38,290 bases of DNA from Vulcanimicrobiota bacterium (GTDB lineage: Bacteria; Vulcanimicrobiota; Vulcanimicrobiia; Eremiobacterales; Eremiobacteraceae), in contig JAFAKE010000001.1 of the NCBI GenBank assembly GCA_019235715.1, forward strand, positions 1-38,290. Reading direction: 5' to 3'. Positions 4,595 to 37,200 of this stretch are shown here, piece after piece. Made by a program: the position numbers and the translations under genes. The notes under the pieces are model-generated. The model saw only the letters and a program-made list of their open reading frames with translations. It was not told the DNA's origin and ran no database searches. The stretch's first letter is position 1. Each line of letters starts with the position of its first letter.

Positions 4595-4635
4595 GCGCAC
4601 CAGGGGCGCGCGCACGCAGCGCCAATCGCTTGACT

Positions 4636-5229: not shown

Positions 5230-5249
5230 CGACGCGCTGATTTTCCCGC

Positions 5250-7691: not shown

Positions 7692-7732
7692 ACGTGTGGA
7701 AGTGTGTTGCGTCCGCCAGGCGCTCCTGCAAC

Positions 7733-7767: not shown

Positions 7768-7786
7768 GTGTGCGTCGCGGCTGCGG

Positions 7787-8290: not shown

Positions 8291-9889
8291 TTAAGGCAAC
8301 GCAAGCACGGAATCGTACCAGCGCTCGAGATCGTTATGGAACACCGCGAGCGCGCTGGGGTTGACATAGACCATGTGCCCCGACTGGTAGAAACCAAATG
8401 TGATGTGGTTGTGCAGCGCCTGGTCGATGCCCATGTGATCCAAGAGATATTCGGTCTGGAAGAATGGCGTCGCCATATCGAAGTATCCGTTGGCCGAGAA
8501 CACACGCAGTCGCGGATTTTCGGTCAGCGTGCGCCCGAGGTCGGGCAACACGTCGCCAAAGGAGCCGCTCTTGCGCCGGAAGTCCCAGTCCAACCCCCCG
8601 CGCAACGGCATGTACTGCGCGTCGGTGCGATAGCCTAAGTCTTTGCGCACGTAGTCGTTGAACGTCGAGATGTAAGCGGATGCGACGTCGCTGTACGACG
8701 GGTCATATTCCGGGACCTGAGCGGTGCGGTCCCACGCGGTGCCCGTGTAGCGGCCGTCGTAGCGGCCGATCACTTCGGCATTGCCGCCGAGCAGCTGCTT
8801 TTCGAATTGTTCAGGGCCGATGCGCAGATCGGTGCGCGCCAGATACGCCTCGCTTATCCCCGTCAATTCGTGCAGCCGGCGTACGATCTGTGCACGCCGT
8901 GCGCTCGGAAGATTCGAGCCTTGCGCCAGCGCCGACGCATAGTCACCGAGCGCGAACGACTCGGAGCTGCGGATCACGGCTGCAAGGTCGCCGCTTTGCG
9001 GCAGCTTGTGCTGATACCAGGCGACGGCTGTCTCGGTCGGCAGATAGGTGAAATAGGTCGCGTCGATGCCGTCACCGGCACCGAAGAGCACGGGGAGATT
9101 CAGCGCGGAGGACAGCAGCACGATCCCATTCACATCGATTCCGCGATCGTGCAGATATGAAGCCACGACGCACGAGCGCGTCGTGCCATAGCTTTCGCCG
9201 AACAGGAACTTTGGCGAGTTCCAACGGCCATATTGCGAAAGATAGCGCTGGATGAACTGCCCGAACGCGGCTGCGTCTTGGTCGATGCCATAGAAATCTT
9301 TCGGATCGCTCTTGCCGAGAAGCCGGGAAAAGCCCGTACCGGGCGCGTCGATGAAGACCAGGTCGGTGCGATCGAGCAAGCTGTATTGGTTGGTCGTGAA
9401 GTCATACGGGGCGCCGCGCGACGGTGCCGCATTTCCCGCTGCGACGCGGCGCGGCCCGAAGGAGCCCAGGTGCAGCCAGATCGTCGACGAGCCGGGGCCG
9501 CCGTTGTACAAGAACGTCACGGGGCGGCGCGCCGGTGCCCCGTCCATGCTGTATGCGACGTAGAAGATCGACGCTGACGGCTCGTCCTGCGCGTTGCGCA
9601 ACGCGATCGTGCCGGCAACGGCGGTATACGCGATGGTTTTGCCGCCCAATTGCAGCGTGTGATGGGTGATCGAGTCCGGCGGAGCCGTCCACGCCGAGCT
9701 TGGCGCCGCGGTCTGCAGCGCAGTGGGCGATGCCGATGCCGGTACGACCGTGCCCGCCGGCGAGGGCGGCGGCGGAGGCGGCGTCTCTGCCGGCCGCGCC
9801 GGCCCGACCGCAACGACGATCGACGCCGCCGCCGCGAGCGCTGCGAAACACATCTTCATACGCTTGTACTTGCCCGGCTTGGACCCCAT
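8291..9889 (-). CDS. Exported serine carboxypeptidase-like protein (peptidase S10)
   Basis: 532 residues from ATG 9889, or 522 from ATG 9859. A signal peptide (MKMCFAALAAAASIVVAVG) leads into a Pro-rich linker. The catalytic triad of S10 peptidases is complete: S233 in FLFGESYGTTR, D471 in ANGYFDMATP and H505 in YQSGHMVYVN. The substrate-pocket motif NGGPGSS is also present. Members remove C-terminal residues from peptides at acidic pH; the length fits. The protein is exported to periplasm or medium. Neither start has a strong ribosome-binding site. The frame stays open far upstream to 10654, but that part lies inside the divergent peroxidase gene. The 49-nt gap between the two starts must hold both promoters. 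Confidence 0.93.
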   Translation of the reverse strand: MGSKPGKYKRMKMCFAALAAAASIVVAVGPARPAETPPPPPPSPAGTVVPASASPTALQTAAPSSAWTAPPDSITHHTLQLGGKTIAYTAVAGTIALRNAQDEPSASIFYVAYSMDGAPARRPVTFLYNGGPGSSTIWLHLGSFGPRRVAAGNAAPSRGAPYDFTTNQYSLLDRTDLVFIDAPGTGFSRLLGKSDPKDFYGIDQDAAAFGQFIQRYLSQYGRWNSPKFLFGESYGTTRSCVVASYLHDRGIDVNGIVLLSSALNLPVLFGAGDGIDATYFTYLPTETAVAWYQHKLPQSGDLAAVIRSSESFALGDYASALAQGSNLPSARRAQIVRRLHELTGISEAYLARTDLRIGPEQFEKQLLGGNAEVIGRYDGRYTGTAWDRTAQVPEYDPSYSDVASAYISTFNDYVRKDLGYRTDAQYMPLRGGLDWDFRRKSGSFGDVLPDLGRTLTENPRLRVFSANGYFDMATPFFQTEYLLDHMGIDQALHNHITFGFYQSGHMVYVNPSALAVFHNDLERWYDSVLALP

Positions 9890-9938
9890 CGCCTTGCCAG
9901 GAGGAGCGCTCTCATCGCAAACGCCAAGGCTCGACAGG

Positions 9939-11285
9939 ATGAGCCTCCAGAGCTGCGTTCTCGATCTGCGCCTGAAGCCCGATCTGTCCGCCGGCGCGGG
10001 CGGCAAATACGGCCGTATGTTCCCGGACCTTGCGCCGCTGCACTGTGAAGAAAAGGATCTGCTCGCGTTGGGACGTGCGGGCTCCGCGCTCGACGTCACC
10101 GTCGACGATCCATCATCCGACAACCCCAAAATTCCAGCCGGGCACACGATGTTCGGACATATGCTCGCCCACGACCTCACCGCCGATCGCAGCCTGCTGG
10201 CCGCGCATGCGAGTCTGCGCCGGATCCACAACTTCCGCACACCCGCGCTCAATTTTGAATCGTTGTACGGCCTTGGACCGTCAGGAGCGCCGTACATGTA
10301 CGATGCGGACGATCCCGACAAGTTCTTGCTCGGCGTCGACGAGACCGGCGCGCGCAGCGACGTGCCGCGGAACAGCCAAGGACGCGCGCTCATCGGCGAT
10401 CCGCGAAACGATGTCCACCATATCATCGTGCAGCTCCACCTCATCATGCTCAAACTGCACAACCGCTTCGTCGAACGCGTGCGCGACGAAGGCGCCGCGG
10501 CACACGACGTCTTCGGACAGGCGCAGCGCAACCTGCGCTGGCACCTGCAGTGGATCGTGCTCAATGAGTTCTTGCCGCTCACCGTCGGCGACGATCTGAT
10601 GCGTGACATCGTGCGCAACGGCCGGCGGTTCTTCCGGCCGGCACATTCGTACATCCCGGTCGAATTCGCCGATGCGGCCTACCGTTTCGGGCACGCACAA
10701 GTGCGCGTCACATACCGGCTCAACGAGCGCACCCGAGCTGCGGTGTACCCCGATCTTGCCGGTGGGCGTTCCCTGCCAAGCGCGCATGTCGTCGACTGGC
10801 GGCGCTTCTTCGCGCTCGATGCCGGATCCCAGCCGCAGGCGAGCAAACGGATCGAGCCGCGCGTCGCGCACACGCTCATCGACCTGCCTGAGAGCGTCGT
10901 CGGGCAGACGCCCCTGCCCGAGTTCCACTCGCTCGCATGCCGCGATCTGACGCGCGCCCGCGCGCTGAATCTCCCATCAGGAGAAACTATCGCCCGGCAC
11001 ATCGGCGCCCAGCCGCTCACGCCTGCTGAGGTGGGATTGGGCGACTACGGCTGGCGCTCCGAGACGCCTCTGTGGTACTACATCTTAAAGGAAGCATCGG
11101 TGCGCCACAACGGCGAGCGCTTGGGCGAGGTCGGGGGCACGATCGTCGCAGAGGTGCTCAGCGGCGTCATCGACGCCGACCCGACGTCATACCGCTCTGC
11201 CGATCCGGCGTGGGTACCGGTGCTGCCCTCACGCCAAGGCGGGCGATTCACACTCGCGGATGCGGTCGCGTCTGCGACGGCTTGA
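9939..11285 (+). CDS. Animal-type heme peroxidase (peroxidase-cyclooxygenase superfamily)
   Basis: 448 residues. The distal histidine is H78 in MFGHMLAHDLT (compare FGQxxDHD of animal enzymes). The proximal histidine is H252 in ADAAYRFGHAQVR, which matches the FAAAAFRFGH signature closely. The GRMFPDL segment near residue 25 is typical of bacterial members. At the usual active-site positions the Gln is replaced by His74 and the heme-linking Asp by Ala77, so a covalent ester at that site is not expected. No signal peptide is seen, so it is probably cytoplasmic or exported by another route. The likely start is ATG 9939 (AAGG about 9 nt upstream). A strong AGGAGGAG at 9900-9907 lies too far upstream to serve that ATG. 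It is divergent from the S10 peptidase. Confidence 0.9.
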   Translation: MSLQSCVLDLRLKPDLSAGAGGKYGRMFPDLAPLHCEEKDLLALGRAGSALDVTVDDPSSDNPKIPAGHTMFGHMLAHDLTADRSLLAAHASLRRIHNFRTPALNFESLYGLGPSGAPYMYDADDPDKFLLGVDETGARSDVPRNSQGRALIGDPRNDVHHIIVQLHLIMLKLHNRFVERVRDEGAAAHDVFGQAQRNLRWHLQWIVLNEFLPLTVGDDLMRDIVRNGRRFFRPAHSYIPVEFADAAYRFGHAQVRVTYRLNERTRAAVYPDLAGGRSLPSAHVVDWRRFFALDAGSQPQASKRIEPRVAHTLIDLPESVVGQTPLPEFHSLACRDLTRARALNLPSGETIARHIGAQPLTPAEVGLGDYGWRSETPLWYYILKEASVRHNGERLGEVGGTIVAEVLSGVIDADPTSYRSADPAWVPVLPSRQGGRFTLADAVASATA

Positions 11286-11310
11286 CGAATCGCCGCTGAT
11301 CTAGCCCCGG

Positions 11311-11967
11311 CTAAGTCCTTCCGCAGGGTGCTCCCGGCGCGGCCGCACGGACGGGACTCCATTGGAAGCTGAAGATCGCCTGCGTTTCCGCAAGCGCGCC
11401 GTCGAGCGTCTCGCCGGCGCGGATGCACCGCGACTGCGGCTGACTGTTGAACGACCAGCCGGGCGGTACGCTGGAAAGTCCCACGCGCACGATCGCATCC
11501 GCCGGCGAAGCGCTCATGGGCACGGCGAAAATGCACAAACCATCGACGCTTTGACTTGCAAGGACGCCGTGCACGGGACCTTTGCCATAGTCGGCCTGCA
11601 CTTCGAAGCCTGCGCAGCCGACCGTCACGGTCTGACGCATGAGCGGCGCAGCGTTGACGGGTTTCGATTCCGGGGAGCCGCCGGCGATCGCGCTCGAGAG
11701 CGCGCCTGAGTTCTTGGGCTCCTTCGTAATAGTGATTTCGCCGAACTTCACTTTGCCAGTCCCTGCACCGCCCGTCGCGCTGCCGATCGTCAGATCGTTC
11801 TCAAACGCGATCGCCGCCCCGCCGCCGCGGCCGGTCAGCGCCGGAACGCGTACCGGTTTCGGCCCCTGAATGCGGATGTAGAACTCAGACGCTGCAGCGG
11901 CCGGAACAGCCATGCACCAAGCGAGCGCGCATGCCGTCAGCAACGCGACGAAACCGAGCCGTTTCAT
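11311..11967 (-). CDS. Exported Hcp-like (type VI tube-fold) protein
   Basis: 218 residues with a clear signal peptide (MKRLGFVALLTACALAWCMA, cleavage near AAA-AS). The segment FYIRIQGPK, then GGAGTGKVKFGEITITK (66-82) and a following SGALSSAIAGG match the core Hcp/T6SS tube pattern (short beta strand, GAGxGKV, TxTK, helix). Canonical Hcp is about 160 residues and has no signal peptide, and no other type VI genes are here. The C-terminal 90 residues (AIVRVGLSSVPPGW, FQWSPVRAA) are extra. Exported Hcp-fold proteins exist outside type VI systems with no established function. An excellent ribosome-binding site (GGAGG) precedes ATG 11967. It may be transcribed with the antiporter upstream (57-nt gap). 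Confidence 0.6.
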   Translation of the reverse strand: MKRLGFVALLTACALAWCMAVPAAAASEFYIRIQGPKPVRVPALTGRGGGAAIAFENDLTIGSATGGAGTGKVKFGEITITKEPKNSGALSSAIAGGSPESKPVNAAPLMRQTVTVGCAGFEVQADYGKGPVHGVLASQSVDGLCIFAVPMSASPADAIVRVGLSSVPPGWSFNSQPQSRCIRAGETLDGALAETQAIFSFQWSPVRAAAPGAPCGRT

Positions 11968-12024
11968 AGGTCGCAGCCTCCTGCCTGAACAACGCGGTCC
12001 GCAAACGCATTGGTTCCCGTTTGC

Positions 12025-13632
12025 TCACTCATCTTCACCGGCTTCCAGGTCGCTTCTGCCCCCGGCACTCCCCAACAGCTGAACCTCCTCGGTCTCGAGA
12101 TCGAGCAGACGCTGTATCCTGCGCATGACGGTGTTGTCGATCTTGCCGCGATCGCGCAAATCGATGAGCGCCTTGCGCTGGGCATCGAGCAGCGCGCATG
12201 CCGTTTTGCGATAGAGCTCGTTGGTCCTCGCGGCCTTGCGCGCATCGCCGTCCAGCGCGCCAAATTCCCACATGCGTGCCTTGAACCGCCGGCGCAGCTG
12301 CTCGACGACGCCGTCCGGCAGATCGCCGGTCTTCGCAAGGCGGTCGAGTTCGGCCACCGCCGCGCTCGCGGTTTGCGCCAGCGCCGTGCGCTCCTCGCGC
12401 GCGTCGACGTCATCCGCGGTGACATGCAGCCAGCGGATGAGCAGCGGCATGGTCCCGCCCTGACCCACCAGCGTCGCAAGCAGCACGCAGAACGTCAAAT
12501 AGATGATGAGGTCGCGCCCGGGAAACGGCCCGCCCGCTGCGGTCAGCGGAATAGCCAGAGCCGCCGCAATGGTGATGCCGCCGCGCATTCCCGACCACGC
12601 CAGCAGCGCGACGTGCGACCAGTCCGCCTTGCCTTCGACGTGCTCGGGTTCGTTCGTGATCGGCAACAGGCCCTGAGCGAAGACCCAGGCGAGGCGCAGG
12701 ACGATCACCGTCGCGCTGACTGCGACGCCGTACCAGATGAGCGCGCCGACCGTGTAATGTCCAAGGCGTGTGACGATCGCATGGAACTGCATGCCGACGA
12801 GCACGAAGATCACCGCGTTGGTCACGAACACCGCCGTGACCCAGAAGCCGCTCGCGCGCTCGCGCGCGGACGGGGTAAGCACGCGCGGGGTGAAACGGTT
12901 CACGAACAGTCCGGTCACGACAACCGCGAGCACGCCCGATGCGCCGATGAGATGGGCGGGCAAATATGCCAGGTAAGGCACGGAGATCGAGATGACCGCC
13001 TGCAACGCGGGGTCCGGCGTGAAACGCCATGCTTGCACCGCGATGAAACCGGCAGCGACGCCCAAGGCGACGCCGCCGGCGACCGAGAGCGCGAGCGCGC
13101 CGACTGTCTGCATGAGCGAAAACGCGCCGCTCACCGCCGCGCCGATCGCAACCGCATAGAGCACGAGTGAGGTCGCGTCGTTGACGAGGCTCTCGCCCTC
13201 GATGGTGGCGACGACGTGACGGGGCAGGGGCAGGCGGTCGACGATCGGCGCAAATGCGACCTCGTCCGTGGACGACACCGCAGCGCCGAGCACGAACGCA
13301 GCCGCCCATCCGATGGCGGGCACGAGCGCATGCGTCACCGCCGCCACCACGACCGTGGTGACGATCACCAACCCGAACGCGAGCTGGAAGATCCACCATG
13401 CGCTGGCGCGGAACTCGCTTTCCGGCGCGGTGACGCTCTCCCAATACAGCAGCGGCGGCAAGAAGATGACGAGCACGAGCTCGGGCGGCAGCGCGATGGC
13501 GGGAAAGCCCGGGATGAAGCCGACCGCCATGCCGGCGAGCAGCAAGAGGATCGGATACGCGACGCCGATGCGGTTGCTGATGCTGACGACGATGACGATG
13601 AGGCCGAGGACGGCGAGCAGCACGAACGGCAT
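12025..13632 (-). CDS. Na+/H+ (cation/proton) antiporter, CPA1 family
   Basis: 535 residues: about 12 membrane helices over residues 1-415, then a soluble, charged alpha-helical tail of about 110 residues (AELDRLAKTGDLPDGVVEQ onward). The transport-site motif is SSTDEVAF (120-127) and the second conserved motif IEGESLVNDATSLVLY contains N151-D152. Both match bacterial NhaP/YjcE-type CPA1 exchangers. The common TDP is TDE here. The family exchanges cytoplasmic Na+ or K+ for external protons. ATG 13632 lies 5 nt after the TMEM175-like stop, giving translational coupling. The frame's long N-terminal extension to 14034 overlaps that gene and is not used. Pairing with a K+ channel suggests joint control of cation and pH balance. 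Confidence 0.92.
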   Translation of the reverse strand: MPFVLLAVLGLIVIVVSISNRIGVAYPILLLLAGMAVGFIPGFPAIALPPELVLVIFLPPLLYWESVTAPESEFRASAWWIFQLAFGLVIVTTVVVAAVTHALVPAIGWAAAFVLGAAVSSTDEVAFAPIVDRLPLPRHVVATIEGESLVNDATSLVLYAVAIGAAVSGAFSLMQTVGALALSVAGGVALGVAAGFIAVQAWRFTPDPALQAVISISVPYLAYLPAHLIGASGVLAVVVTGLFVNRFTPRVLTPSARERASGFWVTAVFVTNAVIFVLVGMQFHAIVTRLGHYTVGALIWYGVAVSATVIVLRLAWVFAQGLLPITNEPEHVEGKADWSHVALLAWSGMRGGITIAAALAIPLTAAGGPFPGRDLIIYLTFCVLLATLVGQGGTMPLLIRWLHVTADDVDAREERTALAQTASAAVAELDRLAKTGDLPDGVVEQLRRRFKARMWEFGALDGDARKAARTNELYRKTACALLDAQRKALIDLRDRGKIDNTVMRRIQRLLDLETEEVQLLGSAGGRSDLEAGEDE

Positions 13633-15587: not shown

Positions 15588-18500
15588 GTGCCGGAAATCT
15601 GCGCCGTCGCCGCGAAACGCTTGCGTTCGATGATCTTGGAACAAAACACAGGGACGCACGCCGCTTTCGATCCGCTCGTCGAAGAGTGGTTTGCCGGACG
15701 CTTCGCTGGCCCCACCGCGCCGCAGATCGCCGGCTGGCCCCGCATCCAGTCTGGAAGCGATGTGCTTATCAGCGCCCCCACCGGATCCGGCAAGACGCTG
15801 GCTGCGTTCTTAGTCGCCGTCGATCGTCTGCTGCGTGCGGCGCGCACCGGACTGGCGGCGCAAACGCAGATCCTCTACGTCTCGCCCCTCAAAGCGCTCG
15901 TCAACGACGTGCACACGAATCTGGAGCGGCCGCTCGCAGAGATCACCGCTCTTGCCCAACTGCATGGCGTCGCGCTCGAGCCGATCCGTGTGGCGTTGCG
16001 CACGGGCGACACGACCATGCGCGACCGCGCGCGCATGCTCACAAGTCTCCCGCACATCCTCGTGACGACCCCCGAATCGCTGTTCATCCTTTTGACCGCC
16101 GCGCGCTCGCGTGAGGCGCTGCGCACGATTTCGACGGTGATCCTCGACGAGATCCACGCGCTGGTGCCGAACAAGCGGGGACCTCATCTCGCGCTGTCGC
16201 TCGCGCGCCTCGATCAGCTCGTCATGGAAAACGGCGGCTCCAAGCCCCAGCGCATCGGCCTGTCGGCGACGGTGAAGCCGGTGGAAGAAATCGCGCGGTT
16301 TCTCAGTCCGGCGGCCGAGGTCATCAACATCGGGCACCGCCGCGAAATGGACCTTTCGGTCGAAGTTCCGCGCGACGAACTCGGACCCGTCGCAAGCAAC
16401 GAGATGTGGGCCGAGATCTACGACCGCCTCGCGCAGCTCATCAGCGAACACCGCACCTCGCTGATCTTCGTCAGCACGCGCAGGCTGTCCGAACGCGTCG
16501 CGCACAACTTGGTCGAGCGCTTGGGCGCGGGCACCGTGATGCCGCATCACGGCAGTTTGGCGCGCCACATACGGCTCGAAACCGAGCGACGCCTCAAGCA
16601 GGGCGAGTTGCGCGCCGTCGTCGCGACCGCATCGCTCGAGCTTGGCATCGATATCGGCTCGGTCGACTTGGTCATACAGATCGGGTCGCCGCGTTCGATC
16701 GCCGTCGCCTTGCAGCGCATCGGGCGCTCGGGGCACTGGGTCGGCGCCCGCCCCAAAGGAATTTTGTTCCCAACAACGCGTGACGACCTCATGGAGTGCG
16801 CGGCGATCGTCAAAGCGATCCGCACGGGCGCGCTGGACCGCCTCGAGCCCGTGACCAACGCGCTCGACGTCTTGGCGCAACAGATCGTCGCGGCGTGCGC
16901 CGCGGCCGACTGGAAAGAGGACGACCTTTACGAGTTGATGCGCGGCGCGCACCCGTATCGTTCGTTGTCGCGCGCAGCCTTCGATGCGGTGCTCGCGATG
17001 CTCGCCGACGGCATCGCGACCTCGCGCGGACGCGCGAGCGCTTTGCTGCATCGCGATCTCGTGCACGGCAGAGTGCGGGGCCGGCGCGGCGCGCGCCTGG
17101 CCGCGATCACGTCGGGCGGCGCGATTCCCGATACGAGCGCCTACGCGGTCGTGGCTGAGCCCGAGGGGACGGTCGTCGGTACGGTGGACGAAGACTTCGC
17201 CGTCGAAAGTCTGGCGGGCGACATCTTCCTACTTGGCATGAACTCGTGGCGCATCAGGCGCGTCGAGCAAGGACGCGTGCGCGTCGACGATGCGCACGGC
17301 GCCCCGCCGACCATACCGTTCTGGCGCGGCGAGGCGCCGGGACGGACGCGCGAACTATCGCAGGAGCTGTCGCGGCTGCGCGAGCGCATCGCAGAGCTCG
17401 CGCAGGCGCCGGCGGCGGCTGTCGAGTACCTCGAGCGCGAGTGCGGTCTCGACCGCCTCGGAGCCGAGCAGGCCGTGCAGTATATAATGGAAGGGAAGGC
17501 TGCGCTCGGAGCCGTTCCCGCGACCGCGTGCGTTATCGCCGAACGCTTCTTCGACGAGTCGGGCGGCATGCAGTTGGTGATCCACGCTCCGCTCGGCGCG
17601 CGCATCAACCGGGCGTGGGGATTGGCGCTGCGCAAGCGTTTTTGCCGCTCGTTCAACATCGAGTTGCAGTCGGCGGCGACGGACAACGGCATCGTCATCT
17701 CGCTGAGCGAACAGCACGCATTTCCCCTCGCATCCGTCTTCGGCTTCCTCAAGGAGCCGAGCGTTGAGGATGTGCTCATCCAGGCTATGCTGCCCTCGCC
17801 GATGTTCACCGCGCGCTGGCGCTGGGACGCGCAGCGCTTCTTAGCCCTGCCGCGCTTCCGCGGAGGCCGCAAGGTGCCGGCCAACATCCAGCGCATGCGC
17901 GCCGACGATCTGCTCGCCGCCGTCTTTCCCGACCAGGCCGCGTGTCCTGAAAACCTAGGCGGGGAAGCAGTGCGCATACCGGACCACCCGCTCGTCGCCG
18001 AAGCGATCCACGATTGCCTGCACGAGGCGATGGACATCGACGGCCTCAAAGAGGTCTTGCGCGGCATCCGCGACGGCTCGGTCCGGGCGCTGGCCGTCGA
18101 GACCGCGGAACCCTCGAAGTTCGCGCATGAGATCCTGAACGCGAATCCGTTCGCGTATCTCGACGACGCGCCGCTCGAAGAGCGGCGCGCACGCGCGGTG
18201 CAACTGCGCAACAGCGTGCGCGCAGACCTCACGATGGGCGCCGGTGCGCTCGACGCCGACGCGATCGCGGCCGTCGCCGACGAATCGTGGCCGGTCGTTC
18301 GTGACGCCGATGAGCTGCACGACGCGCTGCTGACGCTCGTGCAGCTGCCGAGCCCGCAGGCCGGCGAATCCCGCGACGTGTCGGCATGGCAGGGTTACTT
18401 CGAGGTGCTCGCCGGCGCACAGCGCGCGTCCGTGCAGCATGTCGCCAGCGCGGCGTATTGGGTGCCGGCCGAGCGTCTGGCGATTTTCAACGCTGCCCAT

Positions 18501-19718
18501 GGACGGGCTCAAGAGCCCGCGATCGAGGACGCCGTCACGCACATCGTGCGCGGCTGGATGGAGTCGATCGGTCCGATCACGGCTGCGCGGCTTGCGCAGA
18601 TCTTGGAACTGGAACAGCATCTCGTGGAAGCGGCGCTCGTGCGTCTCGAGACCGAAGGTCAAGTGCTGCGCGGTTCGTTCCATCAGGGCACCGAACACGA
18701 ATGGTGCAACCGGCGCGTGCTCGCGCGAATACACCGCCGCACGCTTGGCGCCCTGCGCCGCGAGATCGAACCGGTCAGCACGCTTCGCTATCAGCAGTTC
18801 CTGGAAACCTGGCAGCACCTCGCACCCGGCACGCAGCTGCACGGCGTCGACGGCACGCTGCAGGTCATCAAACAACTGCAAGGACTGGAATTCGCGGCCT
18901 CAGCCTGGGAACGAGAGATCTTGCCGGCTCGTGTCGCGCACTACGATCCGGAATATCTCGACCGCTTGTGCGCATCGGGCGAAGTGATGTGGGGCCGCCT
19001 CTCGCCGCATCCCGCTTTTGACGAGCCGGCGAACGAACGCACGCGCCGCGTACGGCCGTCGCGCATCGCGCCCGTCTCACTGTTCCTGCGCCAGGATGCG
19101 GACTGGCTTCTTTCACGCGCGCGCAGGTCGCGCGCGACGGCGGGCGACGCGTCCTTGTCCGCGGCCGCGTTGGATGTGCGCGACGCCATCGCGCAGAACG
19201 GCGCTTCATTCTTCGCGGACATCGTGCGTTTGTCGGGCAGGCTCGCGAGCGAAGTCGAAGACGGTCTGTGGGAGCTTGTGGCCGCCGGCGAAGTCACCGC
19301 CGACGGCTTCGATAACCTGCGCGCGCTCATCGATCCGCGACGACGCCTCGCCTTAGGGCGTCTCAACCCGGCGCGACCGCGCAACGCAGCAGGGCGCTGG
19401 GCGCTGTTGCGCCCGCCCGCGGCGCGTGCCGCGAGCGCGACGGCGCTCGCCGAGCACGACGCGCAGCTCGAGGCTTTTGTGCACCAACTGCTGGCGCGGC
19501 GAGGCATCCTGTTCCGCGACGCGATCAAGGAGGAGACGCTGGCGCCTGCCTGGCGCGACTGCCTCATCACCTTACGCCGCTTGGAGCTGCAGGGAACCAT
19601 TCGCGGCGGACGATTTGTCGCGACCTACGTCGGCGAGCAGTTCTGCCTGCCTGAGGCGCTCGAGCTGCTGCGTTCGCTACGCCAACCTGAACAGATGAAA
19701 ACCGGCCTTTCAGCCTAG
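15588..19718 (+). CDS. lhr: Lhr-type large DEAD/DEAH helicase
   Basis: 1376 residues, in the size class of full-length bacterial Lhr (about 1500) rather than the 850-900 residue core form. Walker A is APTGSGKT (63-70), the Walker B box is DEIH (187-190), and motif VI is QRIGRSGHW (about 376-384). A winged-helix and Lhr-specific central region follows. A C-terminal part from about residue 960 (STLRYQQFLETWQHLAPGT near 1063) resembles the AlkZ/YcaQ-like HTH_42 domain of Lhr C-termini. Lhr is a 3'-5' ATP-dependent DNA or RNA-DNA translocase linked to DNA repair. Start: GTG 15588, or ATG 15630 (residue 15); neither has a clear ribosome-binding site. There is no nuclease or phosphoesterase partner gene. 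The long antisense frames inside are high-GC shadows. Confidence 0.92.
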   Translation: MPEICAVAAKRLRSMILEQNTGTHAAFDPLVEEWFAGRFAGPTAPQIAGWPRIQSGSDVLISAPTGSGKTLAAFLVAVDRLLRAARTGLAAQTQILYVSPLKALVNDVHTNLERPLAEITALAQLHGVALEPIRVALRTGDTTMRDRARMLTSLPHILVTTPESLFILLTAARSREALRTISTVILDEIHALVPNKRGPHLALSLARLDQLVMENGGSKPQRIGLSATVKPVEEIARFLSPAAEVINIGHRREMDLSVEVPRDELGPVASNEMWAEIYDRLAQLISEHRTSLIFVSTRRLSERVAHNLVERLGAGTVMPHHGSLARHIRLETERRLKQGELRAVVATASLELGIDIGSVDLVIQIGSPRSIAVALQRIGRSGHWVGARPKGILFPTTRDDLMECAAIVKAIRTGALDRLEPVTNALDVLAQQIVAACAAADWKEDDLYELMRGAHPYRSLSRAAFDAVLAMLADGIATSRGRASALLHRDLVHGRVRGRRGARLAAITSGGAIPDTSAYAVVAEPEGTVVGTVDEDFAVESLAGDIFLLGMNSWRIRRVEQGRVRVDDAHGAPPTIPFWRGEAPGRTRELSQELSRLRERIAELAQAPAAAVEYLERECGLDRLGAEQAVQYIMEGKAALGAVPATACVIAERFFDESGGMQLVIHAPLGARINRAWGLALRKRFCRSFNIELQSAATDNGIVISLSEQHAFPLASVFGFLKEPSVEDVLIQAMLPSPMFTARWRWDAQRFLALPRFRGGRKVPANIQRMRADDLLAAVFPDQAACPENLGGEAVRIPDHPLVAEAIHDCLHEAMDIDGLKEVLRGIRDGSVRALAVETAEPSKFAHEILNANPFAYLDDAPLEERRARAVQLRNSVRADLTMGAGALDADAIAAVADESWPVVRDADELHDALLTLVQLPSPQAGESRDVSAWQGYFEVLAGAQRASVQHVASAAYWVPAERLAIFNAAHGRAQEPAIEDAVTHIVRGWMESIGPITAARLAQILELEQHLVEAALVRLETEGQVLRGSFHQGTEHEWCNRRVLARIHRRTLGALRREIEPVSTLRYQQFLETWQHLAPGTQLHGVDGTLQVIKQLQGLEFAASAWEREILPARVAHYDPEYLDRLCASGEVMWGRLSPHPAFDEPANERTRRVRPSRIAPVSLFLRQDADWLLSRARRSRATAGDASLSAAALDVRDAIAQNGASFFADIVRLSGRLASEVEDGLWELVAAGEVTADGFDNLRALIDPRRRLALGRLNPARPRNAAGRWALLRPPAARAASATALAEHDAQLEAFVHQLLARRGILFRDAIKEETLAPAWRDCLITLRRLELQGTIRGGRFVATYVGEQFCLPEALELLRSLRQPEQMKTGLSA

Positions 19719-30395: not shown

Positions 30396-31547
30396 GTGAT
30401 CACGCGTCGAGAAGCGATCAAGCTTGCGAGCGCAGGAGCGTTCGCGCTCGCTGCGTCGCGTGCGCATGCCGCGATGGCTGGCGCGACGCAGCCGAACGCA
30501 ACCGCAATCGCTTCCGCTGCATCTTCGGATACGGCACTCGATCTGCGCAGATTGACGACTGCAGACTTGCGCGCGCTGCCGAGATTAGAATCTCCGAGCG
30601 AGATCAAAAGAACGGGGCGTACGCGCTCGTTTTCGCTCGTCCTCGCGGCCGGCGCCGTTGAGCCGCTTCCGGGGCACCGCGTGCAGACGCGCACCGTCAA
30701 TGGCGCATCGCCGGGCCCCATCTTGCGCATGACCGAAGGCGACGACGTCGAGATCACGATCGTCAACCGATTGAACAAAGGCACGTCGATCCACTGGCAC
30801 GGGGTACCGGTGCCGTTTTTGATGGACGGCGTCGCGACATTCTCGCAAGCGCCAATCGCACCAGGCTCGCACTACGTCTATCGCTGGGTGGCGCCTCAAG
30901 CCGGAACGTACATGTACCACTCACACTACAGCGAGATGGAGGAAGACAGCGTCTCCGGCATGATGATCGTCGATCCGCAAGACGCATCTCGCCAGCCCCG
31001 CTACGATGTCGATGTCGCGATCTCCGTGACGTCGCTGCAGTGGGAGCCGTCGCGGCGTGCCGAAGCGCAAGCGATTCTGGCCGATGCGATGCTCATGCGC
31101 GGCATGGGCGGCGAGTCGAAAGCCGATCCGAACCCGGGCATGGGCGATGCCATGGAACGCATGGACATGGTCGAGTACTGGTGTTTCAACGGCAAGACGT
31201 TTCCGGCCACCGATCCGATCCGCGTGAAGCAAGGCGACCTCGTCCGCGTGCGCTTTGCCAACGTCACGCATATGTCGCACCCGATGCATCTTCATGGGCA
31301 CTGGTTCCGTTGGATCGCCCAAGACGGCGCGCCGCTGTCCGATCCACACGTGATGAACACGATCGCCGTCGACCCTGGGCAAACGATCGACATCGACTTC
31401 ATCGCCAACAATCCTGGGGTATGGCCGTTACACTGCCACATCGTATCCCATATGGTGGATAACAAAGATGTGATGAGCGGTCTGGTGACCGCCGTCGTGT
31501 ACGAGGGCTTCTCGCTGCCTTCGATGATGCAGCAGTATCTGAGGTAG
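30396..31547 (+). CDS. Tat-exported multicopper oxidase (laccase-like)
   Basis: 383 residues. A Tat signal (TRREAIKLASAGAFALAASR) leads the mature enzyme. All copper-binding motifs are present: HWHG (133-136), HSH (175-177), HPMHLHGHW (near 295) and HCHIVSHM (near 346). The last includes the T1 cysteine. Two cupredoxin domains are recognisable, fewer residues than the 450-500 of three-domain laccases. The T1 loop HCHIVSHMVDNKDVM places the likely axial Met 13 residues after the Cys, against 10 in CueO, so there is an insertion. A Met-rich insert (MLMRGMGG, MGDAMERMDM) may bind Cu(I). GTG start at 30396. Possible roles are copper or phenol oxidation. Confidence 0.93.
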   Translation: MITRREAIKLASAGAFALAASRAHAAMAGATQPNATAIASAASSDTALDLRRLTTADLRALPRLESPSEIKRTGRTRSFSLVLAAGAVEPLPGHRVQTRTVNGASPGPILRMTEGDDVEITIVNRLNKGTSIHWHGVPVPFLMDGVATFSQAPIAPGSHYVYRWVAPQAGTYMYHSHYSEMEEDSVSGMMIVDPQDASRQPRYDVDVAISVTSLQWEPSRRAEAQAILADAMLMRGMGGESKADPNPGMGDAMERMDMVEYWCFNGKTFPATDPIRVKQGDLVRVRFANVTHMSHPMHLHGHWFRWIAQDGAPLSDPHVMNTIAVDPGQTIDIDFIANNPGVWPLHCHIVSHMVDNKDVMSGLVTAVVYEGFSLPSMMQQYLR

Positions 31548-31587
31548 GACCCAACGGCCTTTAAGCGTCGCGCGCTAGCATCACACT

Positions 31588-32148
31588 ATGAAGAAGTTCA
31601 TCGGAGCGGCGCTCGTCGCCGCATTCACCTTCGTTCCGTTCGCGGCGTTCGCGGATTCAACGCAGCCGCAGCCCGGTCCGGTCGAACCAAGCGGCATGAC
31701 GCAGATGCGCCAGCAAATGGACCGCCTGCGCGCCCAGGCGCGCACGAGCGCGCTCAACTCGCTGACGCCGTCGAATCGCGCGAAACTCGCGCAAGTCGCG
31801 GGCGCGCTTGCGGTCGCGGAGACTCCCGATATCGCCGCGGCTGCGAAGACGCTTGACGCATCGCTTTCGCAGCGAGAATCCAAGGCGATCCTCGATGCGC
31901 AGACGTCATTCGAGACGCAGATGCGCCAAGCTATGGAGCAAATGCGCGATGCGGACGGCGGCGGTCCGGCTATGGGCGGCGGCCCCAATGTCGGCGGCAA
32001 CGGGCCGAATGGCACCGGTCCGCGCGGGGATATGCAGTTTGTGAACGATCCGCTGCACAACGACGCGGGTGCGGCGCTGTTGCGTCTCGCGCTGCCGCCA
32101 ATGGGTCCGCCGGTGTTCTTCCGGCGGGAGATCCAGCGCACGGAGTAG
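31588..32148 (+). CDS. Exported helical protein, unknown function
   Basis: 186 residues. Signal peptide MKKFIGAALVAAFTFVPFAA (cleavage near AFA-DS) is followed by a charged helical domain (MRQQMDRLRAQARTSALNSL; RAKLAQVAGALAVAETPDIA; AKTLDASLSQRESKAILDAQ), then a Gly/Pro/Asn-rich linker and a hydrophobic end (LLRLALPPMGPPVFF). The helical part loosely recalls CpxP/Spy-type periplasmic proteins, but the LTxxQ motif is not convincing, so no function is claimed. ATG 31588 has a TAGCAT -10-like box ending 6 nt upstream and no Shine-Dalgarno, suggesting a leaderless message. It follows the multicopper oxidase by 40 nt. Confidence 0.75.
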   Translation: MKKFIGAALVAAFTFVPFAAFADSTQPQPGPVEPSGMTQMRQQMDRLRAQARTSALNSLTPSNRAKLAQVAGALAVAETPDIAAAAKTLDASLSQRESKAILDAQTSFETQMRQAMEQMRDADGGGPAMGGGPNVGGNGPNGTGPRGDMQFVNDPLHNDAGAALLRLALPPMGPPVFFRREIQRTE

Positions 32149-32160: not shown

Positions 32161-32937
32161 TCAGCGCGGAAAATCGTAGAAAAACGTATTCGCCGCGCGT
32201 TGGTCGCGACCGCCGAGCAGATCGCGCGCCAGCGCGAAGTGCTTGAGGACGAACCAGTCGCCGAAATGGTCGAACTTGCGGCACGACGTCGTGATGGGCG
32301 CGTTCCACAGCGTAGCGAAGCGCTTGCGGCGCGCGCGGCCGTAGCGCCGCAGGCGCACCGCGAAGTCGATGTCTTCCACCGATACGAGCGACTCGTCAAA
32401 TCCGCCGAGCGCTTCAAAGACGTCGCGCGGCAGCCAAAACATGCCCGCCGACACTTGGTAGCGCAGCGCGAGATATGCGAGCAACACACCGGTCGCGGCG
32501 ATGCCTAACGACATGCGCTCGGGATGGATCATCGCGCCTCCGCCGATGACGTCGCCGCGTTCGAAGTGGCGCTGCATTTCGGCGAATGTGTTAGGCGCCA
32601 TCACCGAGTCCGCGTCGATGGTCACGATCGTCCGTCCGGTCGCCAGGCGCGCACCGGCATTGCGCACCACGGACAGGTTTTTCGCATCGCACTCGTGCGT
32701 TCGCGCGCCGAAGTCGCGCGCGATCTGGCCCGTGCGGTCGGTGCAGCGATTGAGCACGACGACCGTTTCGGTCGCATAACCGGGAGAGCCCACGTCTTGC
32801 TGAAATTCCGTCGCTGCGCGGATGGAAGCGAGGCAGGCCCCGATGCGGCGTTCTTCGTCGCGCGCGGGGACGATTATCGAGAACTGATGCGCTTCAGCCG
32901 GCGGCGGTGTTGGCGGCGTTCGACTCGTACTTGACAC
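32161..32937 (-). CDS. Family 2 glycosyltransferase
   Basis: 258 residues from GTG 32937. The GT-A fold signature is IIVPARDEERRIGACLASI, then VVVLNRCTDRTGQIAR, and a DxD metal/nucleotide-sugar motif at D108-A-D110 in IVTIDADSVM. GGFDESLVSVEDIDFAVRL is the acceptor-side catalytic segment (ED), followed by a basic tail. Such enzymes add sugars to surface glycans or lipids from UDP- or GDP-sugars at the membrane. It overlaps the preceding gene by 44 nt and is the last member of the CheA-like operon, so it may be an output of that pathway, or a co-transcribed bystander. Confidence 0.88.
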   Translation of the reverse strand: MSSTSRTPPTPPPAEAHQFSIIVPARDEERRIGACLASIRAATEFQQDVGSPGYATETVVVLNRCTDRTGQIARDFGARTHECDAKNLSVVRNAGARLATGRTIVTIDADSVMAPNTFAEMQRHFERGDVIGGGAMIHPERMSLGIAATGVLLAYLALRYQVSAGMFWLPRDVFEALGGFDESLVSVEDIDFAVRLRRYGRARRKRFATLWNAPITTSCRKFDHFGDWFVLKHFALARDLLGGRDQRAANTFFYDFPR

Positions 32938-33616
32938 CGAATGTCGTTTCGATCGCGCGGACGATCGCGTCGTATAGCTCCTTGTTGTGCACTTCAATCG
33001 TCGGATCGCCGATCTTCAGCGAGTGGATGTTGTCGGCGAGCACCAACTCGCGCGGCACGCGCCGGAAGACGCGATAGACGGCCAACTGCGCCGCGATTTT
33101 CGGCAGATTTTTGCCGCCGGCCTGGTCGATGATGAAATCGAGCAACGGCTTGAGCTTGTAGCCGCTGATGCCGACCGCGACGCGCGGCATCATCGGCGCG
33201 GACGTCGGCTTGACCGAGAACGACAGGCGCGGCGGCTGCGGTTTGATCGTCGCGCGCAGTTTCGGCTCGACGGCGGGCGATGGAAGCGTTGCCGCTGCAA
33301 GCGCCGCCGCAGCTCCGTTGGTCGCCGTGGGCGCAGCGGGTTGCACGTCTGCGGACCTTGCGGCCGTCGTTTCGCGCTCGCGCATGAATTCGCCATACGT
33401 GACGACGCACTGGTCCATCAATCCTTTGCCGGTCAGTTCGTCTGCCACCTCATCGGCATCGAGCTCGTCCAAACCCATGCGCCGCAGCAGCTGCACGAAC
33501 GGCGTGCGTCCATCCAGCGCGAGCAGCACTTCCCACTCGTACGGGCGCAGGCTCACGCCCAGCGCGCGGTCGTCAAAGTCGCGCGGCCGTTTGAAGACGT
33601 CGCGGCCGGCGCTCAT
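32894..33616 (-). CDS. Unrecognised protein of the CheA/CheX-type operon
   Basis: 240 residues. The N-terminal part (about 20-75: VSLRPYEWEVLLALDGRTPF, QLLRRMGLDELDADEVADEL) looks like a winged helix-turn-helix of the kind seen near DUF4388-type proteins. Residues about 85-145 are an Ala/Pro linker. The C-terminal part (about 150-230: IIDQAGGKNLPKIAAQLAVY, RVFRRVPRELVLADNIHSLK) is a compact alpha/beta region I do not recognise. There is no membrane segment. It overlaps the preceding CheX-like gene by 4 nt, which implies function with that pathway. It could be an adaptor or a DNA-binding output. Confidence 0.8.
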   Translation of the reverse strand: MSAGRDVFKRPRDFDDRALGVSLRPYEWEVLLALDGRTPFVQLLRRMGLDELDADEVADELTGKGLMDQCVVTYGEFMRERETTAARSADVQPAAPTATNGAAAALAAATLPSPAVEPKLRATIKPQPPRLSFSVKPTSAPMMPRVAVGISGYKLKPLLDFIIDQAGGKNLPKIAAQLAVYRVFRRVPRELVLADNIHSLKIGDPTIEVHNKELYDAIVRAIETTFGVKYESNAANTAAG

Positions 33617-34080
33617 GACGCTTTCACCGCTTCGACGCTGGAAAAGACGCCGATCCCCAGATGCGCGGTGCGCCCATCCCAGCGGATCGGCAAGACGAAA
33701 CGCGTGCCCGGCACGGAGAACGGCGGCTGCTGTCCGCCCACCAGCGTGCGCGGCACCGATATCTTGAACTGGCCGCCGAAGCGTTCGCGCGCGTTGCTGG
33801 CGATCGTGCTCGCCATCTCGCCGACGAAGTCGCTGAGCAGCGCGTCGTCGCTCGCCATTTCGCCCGTGCGGCGCAAGAACGAAACCGCGAAATCGCGCGG
33901 CATCGTGATGTACACGCAGCCGTCGTCGCTGCCCGAGATCTGAATGAAACCGCTGTAGTCGAGCAGCTTGGGCGGCGTGAACTCGATCACCGGCTCATCG
34001 AGCAGCGGCGCCTCATCGACCACCTTCGCGAAATAATTCGAGACGATGTCGACGAACATCTTGAGATCGTTGTCGGTCAT
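33613..34080 (-). CDS. CheX-like protein lacking the catalytic Asn (probable pseudophosphatase)
   Basis: 155 residues with the CheX/CheC fold. The first strand region FIQISGSDDGCVYITMPRDF and the helix DFVGEMASTIASNARERFG match CheX. In active CheC/CheX the motif is D/S-x3-E-x2-N; here D84 and E88 are kept but the Asn position is S91 (EMAS). This makes loss of phosphatase activity likely, although another residue could substitute. The tandem paralogue immediately upstream keeps E-I-A-N. Possible roles are a sensor or partner that tunes the active paralogue, or binding of phosphorylated receiver. ATG start overlaps the upstream gene's stop (ATGA); the stop overlaps the next start by 4 nt. Confidence 0.85.
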   Translation of the reverse strand: MTDNDLKMFVDIVSNYFAKVVDEAPLLDEPVIEFTPPKLLDYSGFIQISGSDDGCVYITMPRDFAVSFLRRTGEMASDDALLSDFVGEMASTIASNARERFGGQFKISVPRTLVGGQQPPFSVPGTRFVLPIRWDGRTAHLGIGVFSSVEAVKAS

Positions 34081-34559
34081 TGCGCAGCCGCCATGCGCCG
34101 GCTATGCGGCTGATCGGAAAGGCAGATGATCAAGGTCGAGCGGTGCCCAGTCCAGCTGATCGGAATGACGAACGCAGGAGCATCGTCTGGGAAATGCACG
34201 TCCTCAGCGCGCCCGCGGATCACCACCGGCACGGAGATCAAAAAGCCGGGTCCGAGCTCAAGGCGCGCATTGCCGGATATCGTGTTGGCGATCTCGCCGA
34301 CGAAGTCGGCGCAGATATCGTCGGACAGATCCGACTCGCCGAAGATCTCGGCAAGGGCCTGCACCATGTCGCGCGGGGCCGTGTAGTAGACGCAGCCGCG
34401 CTGGTTGCCTGAAATACCGATGACCGCGGAAAAATCGGACATGACGCGGTCGGACTCGTCGCGCAAAAACGGGGTCCCGACCTCGGCCGGCGTGGGCGAG
34501 ATCTTGCTGAAGAACCGAGCTGCACCGTGGACGAACACCTTGAGGTCGTCCTCAGACAT
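34077..34559 (-). CDS. CheX-family phospho-receiver phosphatase
   Basis: 160 residues. The catalytic helix is complete: D85, E89 and N92 in ADFVGEIANTISGNARLELG, followed by FLISVPVVIRG, which supplies the Pro of the family signature. CheX dephosphorylates CheY-like receivers and works as a dimer. The first strand GIGISGNQRGCVYYTAPRD-type region (residues 48-64) aligns with the paralogue downstream. The start ATG 34559 lies 2 nt after the receiver gene's stop, so it is translationally coupled to its probable substrate. Confidence 0.9.
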   Translation of the reverse strand: MSEDDLKVFVHGAARFFSKISPTPAEVGTPFLRDESDRVMSDFSAVIGISGNQRGCVYYTAPRDMVQALAEIFGESDLSDDICADFVGEIANTISGNARLELGPGFLISVPVVIRGRAEDVHFPDDAPAFVIPISWTGHRSTLIICLSDQPHSRRMAAAQ

Positions 34560-34561
34560 GC

Positions 34562-34918
34562 CTACTCCGCGAGGAGTTCGGCCAATTCTGTGTGCAGCAT
34601 CTCCGCTGTGAACGGCTTGAGTAAGAATCCCTGTGCTCCCCGTTTGATGGCCTCGACCGCAGTCGCTTTATCGGCGAGCGCGGAGATGACCAATATCTTC
34701 GTATCCGGTCTCCGGTTGAGAATCGCGTCGACGCACGACAGCCCATCCAACTCGGGCATCGTGATATCCATGGTGACGATTTCGGGCGCGAACTCGTCGA
34801 AGACCGCGAGGGCCTCCGTGCCGTTGCCCGCAGAGCGTATCTCGTAGCGCGACGATCCGATCTCGCGCGCGATCGCGCGCCTGATCACGTTCGAGTCGTC
34901 GACGATGAGCAGCTTCAT
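34562..34918 (-). CDS. CheY-like single-domain response regulator
   Basis: 118 residues, a lone receiver domain. Acidic pocket D7-D8 (LLIVDDSN), phosphoacceptor D51 (IVTMDITMPELDG), the switch serine S79 (ILVISALADK) and K101 (FLLKPFTAEM) are all in place. There is no output domain, so like CheY it must act by binding a partner: the unrecognised protein or a flagellar or pilus target elsewhere. ATG 34918 has GGAGG 8 nt upstream. It follows the kinase by 20 nt and precedes the CheX gene by 2 nt. Confidence 0.95.
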   Translation of the reverse strand: MKLLIVDDSNVIRRAIAREIGSSRYEIRSAGNGTEALAVFDEFAPEIVTMDITMPELDGLSCVDAILNRRPDTKILVISALADKATAVEAIKRGAQGFLLKPFTAEMLHTELAELLAE

Positions 34919-34938
34919 CGCCGGGGCCTCCGCGCCGA

Positions 34939-37200
34939 TCACGCGACGCCTGCCGGCGCTGCCGTCGTCGCGATCGGCAGCGAGAAGGTGAATTCGCAAT
35001 ATTGGCCAGGATCGGAGCTGACCCCGATCTCGCCGCCCCATTCGTCGACGATGACGTGCTTGACGACGTCCATGCCGACGCCGCGGCCTGCATCCGTCGT
35101 CGCGCCGTTGCTGGTCGTGAAGCCAGGCGCGAAGATGTAGCGCGCGACCTGGCTCTCGTCGGCTTTTACCGCCTCGTCGCCGGCGAGCAGCCCCAGCTCA
35201 AGCGCCCGTTTGCGGATAGCGGCTGGATCCAGACCGCGCCCGTCGTCGCGGAAGGAGAACGCAAAGGCGTTCGGCGCGCTGGCCAGCCCGCGGATCAAGA
35301 TCGTCGCCTGCGCCGGCTTGCCGGCCGTTTCGCGCAGCTGCGCCGTTTCGACGCCGTGCGCCAGGCTGTTGCGCGTCAGTTGCACGAGCACGTCGCGGAC
35401 GGCGCGCCGCATCTCAGGACCGAGCGCGCGCGTGTCAAAACCGTCGTCGACGACCCGTACGTCTTTCTCGAGCTTGATCGCAAGCGATTGGGCGAGCGCA
35501 CGAATGGCGACCACGACCTCATCGGGCATGCGCGCGCCGCTTTCGCGCGCGCCAGCTCCGTCGGCCGCGCGCACGTGCGCGCCGAACGCCGATATCGCGC
35601 CAGGCGACACGCGCTGGATGCCGGTCAGCTTCTCGCGCAGGTCTTGCAGCTCGGCGATGTCCGCGCGCAGATCGGATTCTGCGATGACGATCGACAAGAA
35701 GTCGTCCCCGCCCAGTATCGGCCGGTTGCGCAGCTCGACGATCTTCTGCTCGAACGTATCGCAGGTCTTTTGGAAATACTCGAGGTTGAGCAGGGCGGCG
35801 TTGCCCTTGATATTGTGCACGCAACGGAACACGATATCCAGCCGCTGGCGCAGCTTTTCGATCTGCCCTGCGGACGCCGCGGCGAAATCCTGCGCCTTGA
35901 GCGCGTCGTTCATCTCGCGCGTGCGCGTCTGCGCACCGGCGATGAATTCGTCAAGCATGCGAGGATCGACGTGCAGGATGCCGAGCAGCAGCTCGAACTG
36001 GCGCTCCTTCTTGTGCTCCGACTCGCGCAGCTGGCGCTCCAGCTGGACGCGTCCGGTCACATCGGTCACCGCGATGAACACGCGCGTGATCTCGCCGCTT
36101 TGCACGATGCGCCGGAACGAGAACCCGAGGTACTTCGAGATGAAGCCGCCTTCAGGGTTCGGGAAATTGACCTCGACCTCGTCCAGCGGGTTGACGCGCA
36201 GGACGGCGCGCTCTTTCTTCTTCGCATCGAACAACAGCCCGAGATAGTCGCGCGAGGTGTTGTACATGCGCTCTGTGAGGATGCGCTGTAAGATGTTGAG
36301 CAGGTTGTGCCCCGCGAGATCTTTCATCCTGAAGATCTCCTCGAGCTCGCGCGAGTACTGCGCTTCGATGCGGTAATCGGGACGGATGAGCAGCAATCCT
36401 TGACGCACGGTCTCCATGATGAGATCCGTGCCGCGTTTGGCGTGCGCCAGCGCCGTCGTGCTTTCCGCCAGTTCGTCGTTGCGCAATTCGAGGGAGCTGG
36501 CGTAGACGCGGATCTGGTTTTGACCCTCGGTGACGCGCGTGAACAGGATGCCGACGATCGCGACGACGCACAACACCGCAAGCCCGATGAGCAGGTTGCG
36601 GATGAACGTCAGGTCCTTCGCGCCTTGCGTCGCGGTCCGCTCGATCGAGAGCGCGATGTCGCTCATCATGTTCGAGATCTGTGCGCCGTTCGCGACGGCA
36701 TAGGATGCGGCGTCGTCCACGGTCGCGACCGGCGGTGCTACCAGAGTAAAGGAAGCGATTTTTTGGCGCAGCGGCGACCAGGCGTTCTGCGCCTGCGCGA
36801 GCGCAGCGACCTGCGCATCGCCCTTGAGGGGCGCGACCGTCAACGCCGCGCCGGCGAGATCGGTTGTCGACCCGCCGTTCATGAACGCCTTGAGGGTTTG
36901 ATCGAACGTCGCGGCCGCGTCGCTCACATCGCCCAAGGTCGACGGCAGCGGCGCTTGGTTCGTGTGCTCGGCGAGCTGGATCTGCAGCAGGTCCTTGGAG
37001 ATGCGCTGCACGAGCTCGCTCTGCCGCGCCGCCACGCTGACGAGACGGATGTTCGCTTGCGAGCGCACGGTGATGGCCGCATTGACCAAGACGGTTCCGA
37101 ACAGGGCGCCCGTGAAAAGCAATACGCACGCGACCAAGCCTATCGTCAGCCAGACCTGCGACGACGGCGCCTCTCGCGGTGCTTGCGATACGTATCTCAT
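34939..37200 (-). CDS. Membrane CheA-like histidine kinase with PAS and HPt domains
   Basis: 753 residues. Two membrane helices (about 16-39 and 198-221) bracket a periplasmic domain of about 155 residues resembling the helical PilJ-type sensor. A PAS domain follows (about 255-390). The phosphotransfer motif FRCVHNIKGNAALLNLEY gives phospho-His H462. The CheA-type HATPase begins near 600: QLTRNSLAHGVE (N-box), DDGRGLDP (G1), GRGVGMDVV (G2). The protein stops soon after the ATPase, so there is no CheW-like regulatory (P5) domain. That makes it independent of CheW arrays. The kinase probably phosphorylates the adjacent receiver. The first ATG is 37200; TACCAT ends 5 nt before it and AAGGG abuts it. 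Confidence 0.92.
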   Translation of the reverse strand: MRYVSQAPREAPSSQVWLTIGLVACVLLFTGALFGTVLVNAAITVRSQANIRLVSVAARQSELVQRISKDLLQIQLAEHTNQAPLPSTLGDVSDAAATFDQTLKAFMNGGSTTDLAGAALTVAPLKGDAQVAALAQAQNAWSPLRQKIASFTLVAPPVATVDDAASYAVANGAQISNMMSDIALSIERTATQGAKDLTFIRNLLIGLAVLCVVAIVGILFTRVTEGQNQIRVYASSLELRNDELAESTTALAHAKRGTDLIMETVRQGLLLIRPDYRIEAQYSRELEEIFRMKDLAGHNLLNILQRILTERMYNTSRDYLGLLFDAKKKERAVLRVNPLDEVEVNFPNPEGGFISKYLGFSFRRIVQSGEITRVFIAVTDVTGRVQLERQLRESEHKKERQFELLLGILHVDPRMLDEFIAGAQTRTREMNDALKAQDFAAASAGQIEKLRQRLDIVFRCVHNIKGNAALLNLEYFQKTCDTFEQKIVELRNRPILGGDDFLSIVIAESDLRADIAELQDLREKLTGIQRVSPGAISAFGAHVRAADGAGARESGARMPDEVVVAIRALAQSLAIKLEKDVRVVDDGFDTRALGPEMRRAVRDVLVQLTRNSLAHGVETAQLRETAGKPAQATILIRGLASAPNAFAFSFRDDGRGLDPAAIRKRALELGLLAGDEAVKADESQVARYIFAPGFTTSNGATTDAGRGVGMDVVKHVIVDEWGGEIGVSSDPGQYCEFTFSLPIATTAAPAGVA

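Follow-up and report, generated by a model that had tools for sequence, protein, structure and literature searches.

Can the phosphotransfer chemistry of bacterial chemotaxis work away from a receptor array? The question is raised by an operon on a 38,290-nucleotide (nt) stretch of DNA from a Vulcanimicrobiota bacterium (the window; GenBank contig JAFAKE010000001.1), in which the gene for a membrane receptor-kinase with CheA-type domains is followed by genes for a stand-alone receiver (REC), two CheX-family proteins, a 240-amino-acid (aa) protein and a family 2 glycosyltransferase (GT2). The window is the whole of contig C27 of genome G000, an assembly of 2.5 Mb in 107 contigs that is 96% complete. 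Neither CheW nor a methyl-accepting chemotaxis protein (MCP) was matched in this genome, and no second P4-type kinase was found at E 1e-10. With MCP and CheW missing from the genome, this is not a chemosensory array system. We propose that the operon encodes a stand-alone phosphosignalling switch assembled from chemotaxis parts and operating with no receptor array, a reading that we hold with a probability of about 0.68.

Architecture of the operon and its kinase

The first-pass annotation, made from the sequence letters, had described six closely packed genes on a single strand, and both the coordinates and a Pfam scan confirmed this. All six open reading frames (ORFs) lie on the minus strand and overlap or stand 2–20 nt apart (Table 1). 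Specifically, 20 nt separate the kinase gene from REC and 2 nt separate REC from CheX1, while ATGA overlaps join CheX1 to CheX2 and CheX2 to the 240-aa gene, which the GT2 gene also overlaps. The longer REC ORF in the ORF list starts from an upstream codon, and for GT2 a GTG start at 32937 is likelier than a TTG at 32997. Matches over cut-off were obtained for Hpt (4.7e-7), HATPase_c (1.1e-13), Response_reg (6e-27) and CheX (1e-18 for CheX1, 2e-11 for CheX2); the GT2 match in the same scan was 4e-16. The receiver has a complete active-site set and no output domain.

The kinase had been described as a two-transmembrane (TM) protein with PAS and HPt domains and a CheA-type ATPase but no CheW-like domain, and this description was borne out. 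Hydrophobic segments were located at aa ~15-39 (TM1) and ~200-222 (TM2). The sensor region matches PilJ (PF13675) weakly, at E 0.004 and below cut-off, and the homologue L065 matches it over cut-off at E 3e-12. PAS had no match in the Pfam scan, and a PAS-like alpha/beta domain was found in the AlphaFold2 (AF2) model, which has a mean predicted local distance difference test score (pLDDT) of 79.5. A residue check identified H462 as the HPt histidine (PF01627 over cut-off), and the Pfam scan of the kinase returned no HisKA family. All four ATPase boxes are present in P4 (N 611, G1 652, F 690, G2 705), which resembles the P4 of CheA structures in sequence (phmmer 7e-25; ~30% identity to solved P4) and in fold (Foldseek TM-score 0.8-0.87, by target). 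There is no P5 or CheW-like domain: PF01584 was not matched and the chain ends 3-9 aa past P4.

The P3 dimerisation domain of CheA is a hairpin of ~60 aa (PMC10782961), whereas only ~32 residues, mostly of low pLDDT in the AF2 model, lie between the HPt domain (to ~529) and P4 (from ~561) of the kinase, leaving no room for P3. P1, P3, P4 and P5 form the core in all 13,673 surveyed CheAs (PMC10782961), and under this published definition the kinase is not a CheA. The earlier label "membrane CheA" was therefore correct as to the membrane and the P1 and P4 domains but too strong as to the name, P3 and P5 being missing.

The array-independent interpretation put forward in the first-pass annotation holds for G000: sensor and kinase are one protein, no CheW-like tail or che genes in the vicinity were found, and the gene order is kept in relatives. 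Across the class, CheW occurs in none of the 12 genomes with this kinase and in 67 of 105 others (Fisher p 1.6e-5; genus level p 2.7e-5), a pattern partly of shared ancestry and drawn mostly from metagenome-assembled genomes. The only MCP among the 12 is a single fragment in one genome. Within the window's family, nine sister-genus genomes have CheW, and genera g1 and g2 carry the cassette instead. In many class relatives (e.g. G127:C196:12055-12273) a gene scoring weakly as CheX/CheC-like (20-25 bits) lies ~1.4 kb away from a canonical CheA that has CheW in its vicinity; this is another system in the class, one of array type.

Conservation and spread of the kinase-REC-CheX unit

Full-length kinase orthologues are encoded in G044 (80%), G024 (50%) and G122, G131 and G012 (48%), and the order kinase-REC-CheX1-240aa is found in all six Vulcanimicrobiota cassette genomes, the window's included; its recurrence in distant genomes is far above chance. 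The conserved gene order claimed earlier stands for these four genes but not for the remaining two, since, among Vulcanimicrobiota cassettes, only those of the window's family also have CheX2 and only those of its genus GT2. CheX exceeds its curated cut-off in six of the 12 kinase genomes, where it is found solely in the cassette operon beside a full-length kinase, and in the rest of the class only in G040, marginally (28 bits). Strong matches to the 240-aa family were likewise confined, within the class, to the six cassette genomes. A transporter of the major facilitator superfamily (MFS) adjoins the kinase gene in five of the six loci, divergently in four and, in G024, 14 nt upstream on the same strand. 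The 240-aa protein and this transporter are thus more conserved partners than GT2. The first-pass annotation had overlooked the transporter, and the spread across phyla described below was beyond its view. Vulcanimicrobiota also possess kinase versions lacking the PilJ-like sensor, namely L030, L032, L033 (kinase and REC, no CheX) and L034-L038; the last five have lost the HPt histidine and kept the ATPase N box. At least one of the organism labels looks wrong: L054, labelled "Rhodospirillales", appears to be contig G012:C180, placed in the window's class.

Relatives beyond the class were sought by scanning the PAS-HPt region against ~85,000 genomes. Kinase relatives were found in Verrucomicrobiota (68% identity, L050/L051), Bacteroidota, Gammaproteobacteria, Sulfuricurvum (Campylobacterota), Brevinematales (Spirochaetota) and Calditrichota. 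In these other phyla REC and CheX adjoin 18 kinases at 17 loci, in the order kinase-REC-CheX or REC-CheX-kinase, the exceptions being L067, where the contig ends, and two Calditrichota loci. The conserved unit is therefore kinase-REC-CheX, shared by the six Vulcanimicrobiota genomes and all the listed groups except Calditrichota, which brings the number of phyla to at least six. One Verrucomicrobia locus (L060) holds two complete tandem cassettes, at 3858-8206 and 9203-13524, each with kinase, REC, CheX1, CheX2 and a 240aa-type gene.

Past P4, cassette kinases have a tail of 0-13 aa, compared with 133-220 aa in CheAs, and in a P4 tree a branch with 100/99 support parts 34 cassette and solo kinases from all 29 P5-bearing CheAs. 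Kinases of Vulcanimicrobiota and of Opitutae-type Verrucomicrobiota cluster together (98/97), apart from those of Rubritalea-type Verrucomicrobiota, which points to transfer between phyla. The data are compatible with a single clade for all Vulcanimicrobiota kinases (p-AU 0.39), so genes may have passed in either direction between this phylum and the Opitutae-type Verrucomicrobiota.

Sensors and neighbours vary around the conserved unit. Besides the PilJ-type sensor (L065), cassette kinases carry HAMP (L072) or an ammonium transporter (L066, L070). In the latter two, a complete transporter (PF00909, E 1e-114 or better) is fused ahead of the P1-P4 kinase (L066:8267-11449, L070:8633-11251), and REC and CheX adjoin. 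Candidate effectors encoded alongside are a winged-helix-like protein in Vulcanimicrobiota and Opitutae, a class III cyclase after the kinase in L072 and probably L066, and a SpoIIE/PP2C phosphatase in L081 and probably L075. A small protein following CheX in Rubritalea-type cassettes scores 17 bits against the 240-aa family in L071 and does not match it in L069, which is only suggestive of a relationship. We tentatively suggest, at somewhat less than even odds, that kinase-REC-CheX forms a distinct, horizontally spread signalling class in which array-free CheA chemistry is joined to exchangeable modules: on the input side a PilJ-type, ammonium transporter or HAMP sensor, on the output side a winged-helix protein, a class III cyclase or a PP2C phosphatase. 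One lineage of this class would use a conserved active/inactive CheX pair to set the lifetime of the receiver phosphate.

Table 1. Features of the operon and the adjoining transporter gene in window coordinates
Feature	Position	Strand	Basis or note
Membrane receptor-kinase, 753 aa; TM1, PilJ-like helical domain, TM2, PAS-like, HPt (P1), P4	34939..37200	-	
PilJ-like (PF13675) periplasmic sensor region, aa 54-152	36745..37041	-	Pfam; homologue L065
PAS-like domain, aa ~256-380	36061..36435	-	AF2 model; kept in relatives
HPt domain, aa ~413-529; phospho-acceptor H462, codon 35815-35817	35614..35964	-	Pfam, AF2, residue check
CheA-type P4 ATPase, aa ~561-744; N, G1, F, G2 boxes	34969..35520	-	
CheY-like stand-alone receiver, 118 aa; D7, D8, D51, S79, K101	34562..34918	-	
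CheX1, 160 aa; catalytic E89 and N92	34077..34559	-	
CheX2, 155 aa; E74 kept, N to S77; predicted pseudophosphatase	33613..34080	-	
240-aa protein; winged-helix-like N-terminus, disordered linker, helical C-terminus	32894..33616	-	
GT2 glycosyltransferase; genus-confined, outside conserved cassette	32161..32937	-	
MFS transporter, divergent from kinase gene, truncated at contig end	37253..38290	+	L-lactate/oxalate-formate family

Elsewhere in the window, a multicopper oxidase gene followed by one for a small putative exported protein is found at 30396-32148 (+). The small protein has a sub-threshold LTXXQ (Spy/CpxP-like) match (E 0.041) and a homologue near the cassette in L028. A large Lhr-type DEAD-box helicase at 15588-19718 (+) is ordinary.

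A proposed phosphotransfer route and its alternatives

For the stand-alone switch we infer the following route, in effect that of a CheA-CheY-CheX pathway whose kinase incorporates the receptor. The periplasmic PilJ-like domain of the kinase would sense a signal and relay it by way of TM2, then a coiled coil and the PAS-like domain, to the P4 ATPase, which would phosphorylate H462 in the built-in HPt domain; the phosphoryl group would then be transferred from H462 to D51 of the receiver. CheX1 would serve as the off switch by stripping phosphate from D51, and CheX2, whose fold is kept but which has no catalytic Asn, would probably pair with CheX1 or shield the receiver and so tune turnover. 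The phosphorylated receiver would act on an effector, the best candidate in this lineage being the 240-aa protein, with the MFS transporter as a possible target or signal source.

The 240-aa protein comprises a winged-helix-like region (aa ~5-90), a disordered linker with an SFSV motif and a helical C-terminal domain (aa ~153-230). A fold search with it gave nothing below E 0.001, the best matches being to SEA/GATOR1 subunit regions, then MarR-type regulators and KorA, so the winged-helix label is tentative.

The MFS transporter suggests that the cassette might instead sense a monocarboxylate such as L-lactate, or control its transport. The arrangement beside the Vulcanimicrobiota kinases described above favours this, as do two transporter copies that score over the SfMCT L-lactate transporter cut-off. 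A link beyond Vulcanimicrobiota was nevertheless rejected, since cassettes in Verrucomicrobiota and the remaining phyla do not have the transporter next to them, and we regard a monocarboxylate role as unlikely.

Another candidate output is type IV pilus behaviour, in which the PilJ-like sensor would act on pilus motors by way of the receiver. The sensor domain itself and the pilus-type ATPases encoded in all six cassette genomes speak for it, but PilJ/NarX-type folds occur in many sensors, T2SSE-type ATPases are near-universal and were matched in all 14 control genomes, and no pilus gene adjoins the cassette; a pilus output is distinctly unlikely.

Several observations weigh against a stand-alone switch. 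CheW is present in 14 of the 19 other kinase genomes. In L075 (Cyclobacteriaceae, Bacteroidota) the cassette directly follows CheW, MCP, CheR, CheD, CheB and CheY-like genes, so that array independence is not universal and cross-talk with arrays, or recruitment by them, is possible there. The shared ancestry behind part of the class-wide CheW pattern belongs here too, as do the absence from the kinase of P3, the dimerisation domain of CheA, and the derivation of the winged-helix assignment from AF2 together with sub-threshold fold and HMM matches. The same CheW counts and L075, along with L051, where CheB/CheD lie ~8 kb off, and the CheW of sister genera in the window's family, could be read as signs that the cassette is an offshoot or remnant of canonical chemosensory signalling, in which the kinase would feed or drain phosphorylated CheY and the array was lost in this lineage. 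CheW is, however, lacking from the other five of the 19 genomes, including Rubritalea marina and Persicirhabdus sediminis, and whole cassettes occur in CheW-less genomes of two further phyla (L068, L069 and L071 in Verrucomicrobiota; L081 in Bacteroidota) as well as in the Vulcanimicrobiota carriers. Intact active sites, low dN/dS and a kinase clade separate from CheA also fit a relic poorly, and we find this explanation quite improbable.

The stand-alone switch would include an unequal CheX pair. Both proteins exceed the PF13690 cut-off of 27 bits (CheX1 67.7, CheX2 44.4), and the first-pass annotation was right that two CheX-family proteins are present. Its phrase "the phosphatase is duplicated" goes too far: the ExxN motif is intact in 24 of 24 CheX1 sequences, whereas all ten CheX2 copies have ExxS or ExxG. 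The CheX2 sequences form one clade (100/99) and are under purifying selection similar to that on their neighbours, with dN/dS between the two genus members of 0.13 for CheX2, 0.08 for CheX1 and 0.11 for REC. From its motif, CheX2 is probably a pseudophosphatase. At 14 of the 15 loci that have the 240-aa protein, CheX2 is co-present or co-absent with that protein's C-terminal domain (Fisher 0.004, relatedness ignored), and its binding partner might be CheX1, the receiver or the 240-aa protein. A simple dosage duplication with two active phosphatases would agree with the common fold family and the retained Glu, but the consistent loss of Asn from CheX2 makes it very improbable.

Lastly, surface glycan synthesis through GT2, the output first suggested for this operon, is scarcely credible: in both genus genomes the GT2 gene and the final gene of the cassette overlap, but GT2 accompanies no other cassette, that of same-family G024 included, and it evolves under weaker constraint than any other gene of the operon (dN/dS 0.26), so its confinement to one genus leaves a glycan output unsupported.

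Comparison with known signalling systems

Searches of the open-licence PMC literature yielded no description of a CheA-like kinase without P5 that is paired with CheY and CheX, which does not prove that none exists. The published CheA definition includes the array-binding P5 domain (PMC10782961), and kinases of the cassette type are thereby left out. CheX, for its part, carries the label of a chemotaxis protein in any context. Should the cassette function by itself, many genes annotated as cheA or cheX in non-chemotactic bacteria would belong to a separate signalling system, and the cassette would offer a minimal setting for asking if P3, P5 or an array is required for CheA-type catalysis. The active/inactive CheX pair is a testable case of a bacterial pseudophosphatase in signalling.

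Like orthodox two-component sensor kinases, the cassette kinase has a membrane sensor, TM segments, PAS and ATPase on one chain and an adjacent receiver gene; unlike them, its phospho-accepting histidine lies in an HPt domain and not in HisKA/DHp, the phosphatase is a separate protein and the receiver lacks an output domain. The Pil-Chp system of Pseudomonas has PilJ as receptor and ChpA as kinase, and there a PilJ-type periplasmic sensor feeds a P1-P4 kinase, as the PilJ-like domain would in the cassette, where receptor and kinase are one protein and no CheW-type adaptor is involved. The CheY/CheX pathway known from Thermotoga and Borrelia (Park et al. 2004, as cited in PMC10782961) has a single-domain receiver and an ExxN-bearing CheX that dephosphorylates it. 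The cassette encodes the same two components, but its kinase is itself the receptor and not array-bound, and one lineage has an extra ExxS/G pseudo-CheX. Overall, the cassette kinase shares with the CheA kinases of the F1-F17, ACF and Tfp classes (PMC10782961) an HPt-type P1, a CheA-type P4 and a CheY-like partner, and differs from them in lacking P3 and P5/CheW, in carrying its own membrane sensor and PAS-like domain, in forming a separate clade and in occurring in genomes without CheW or MCP.

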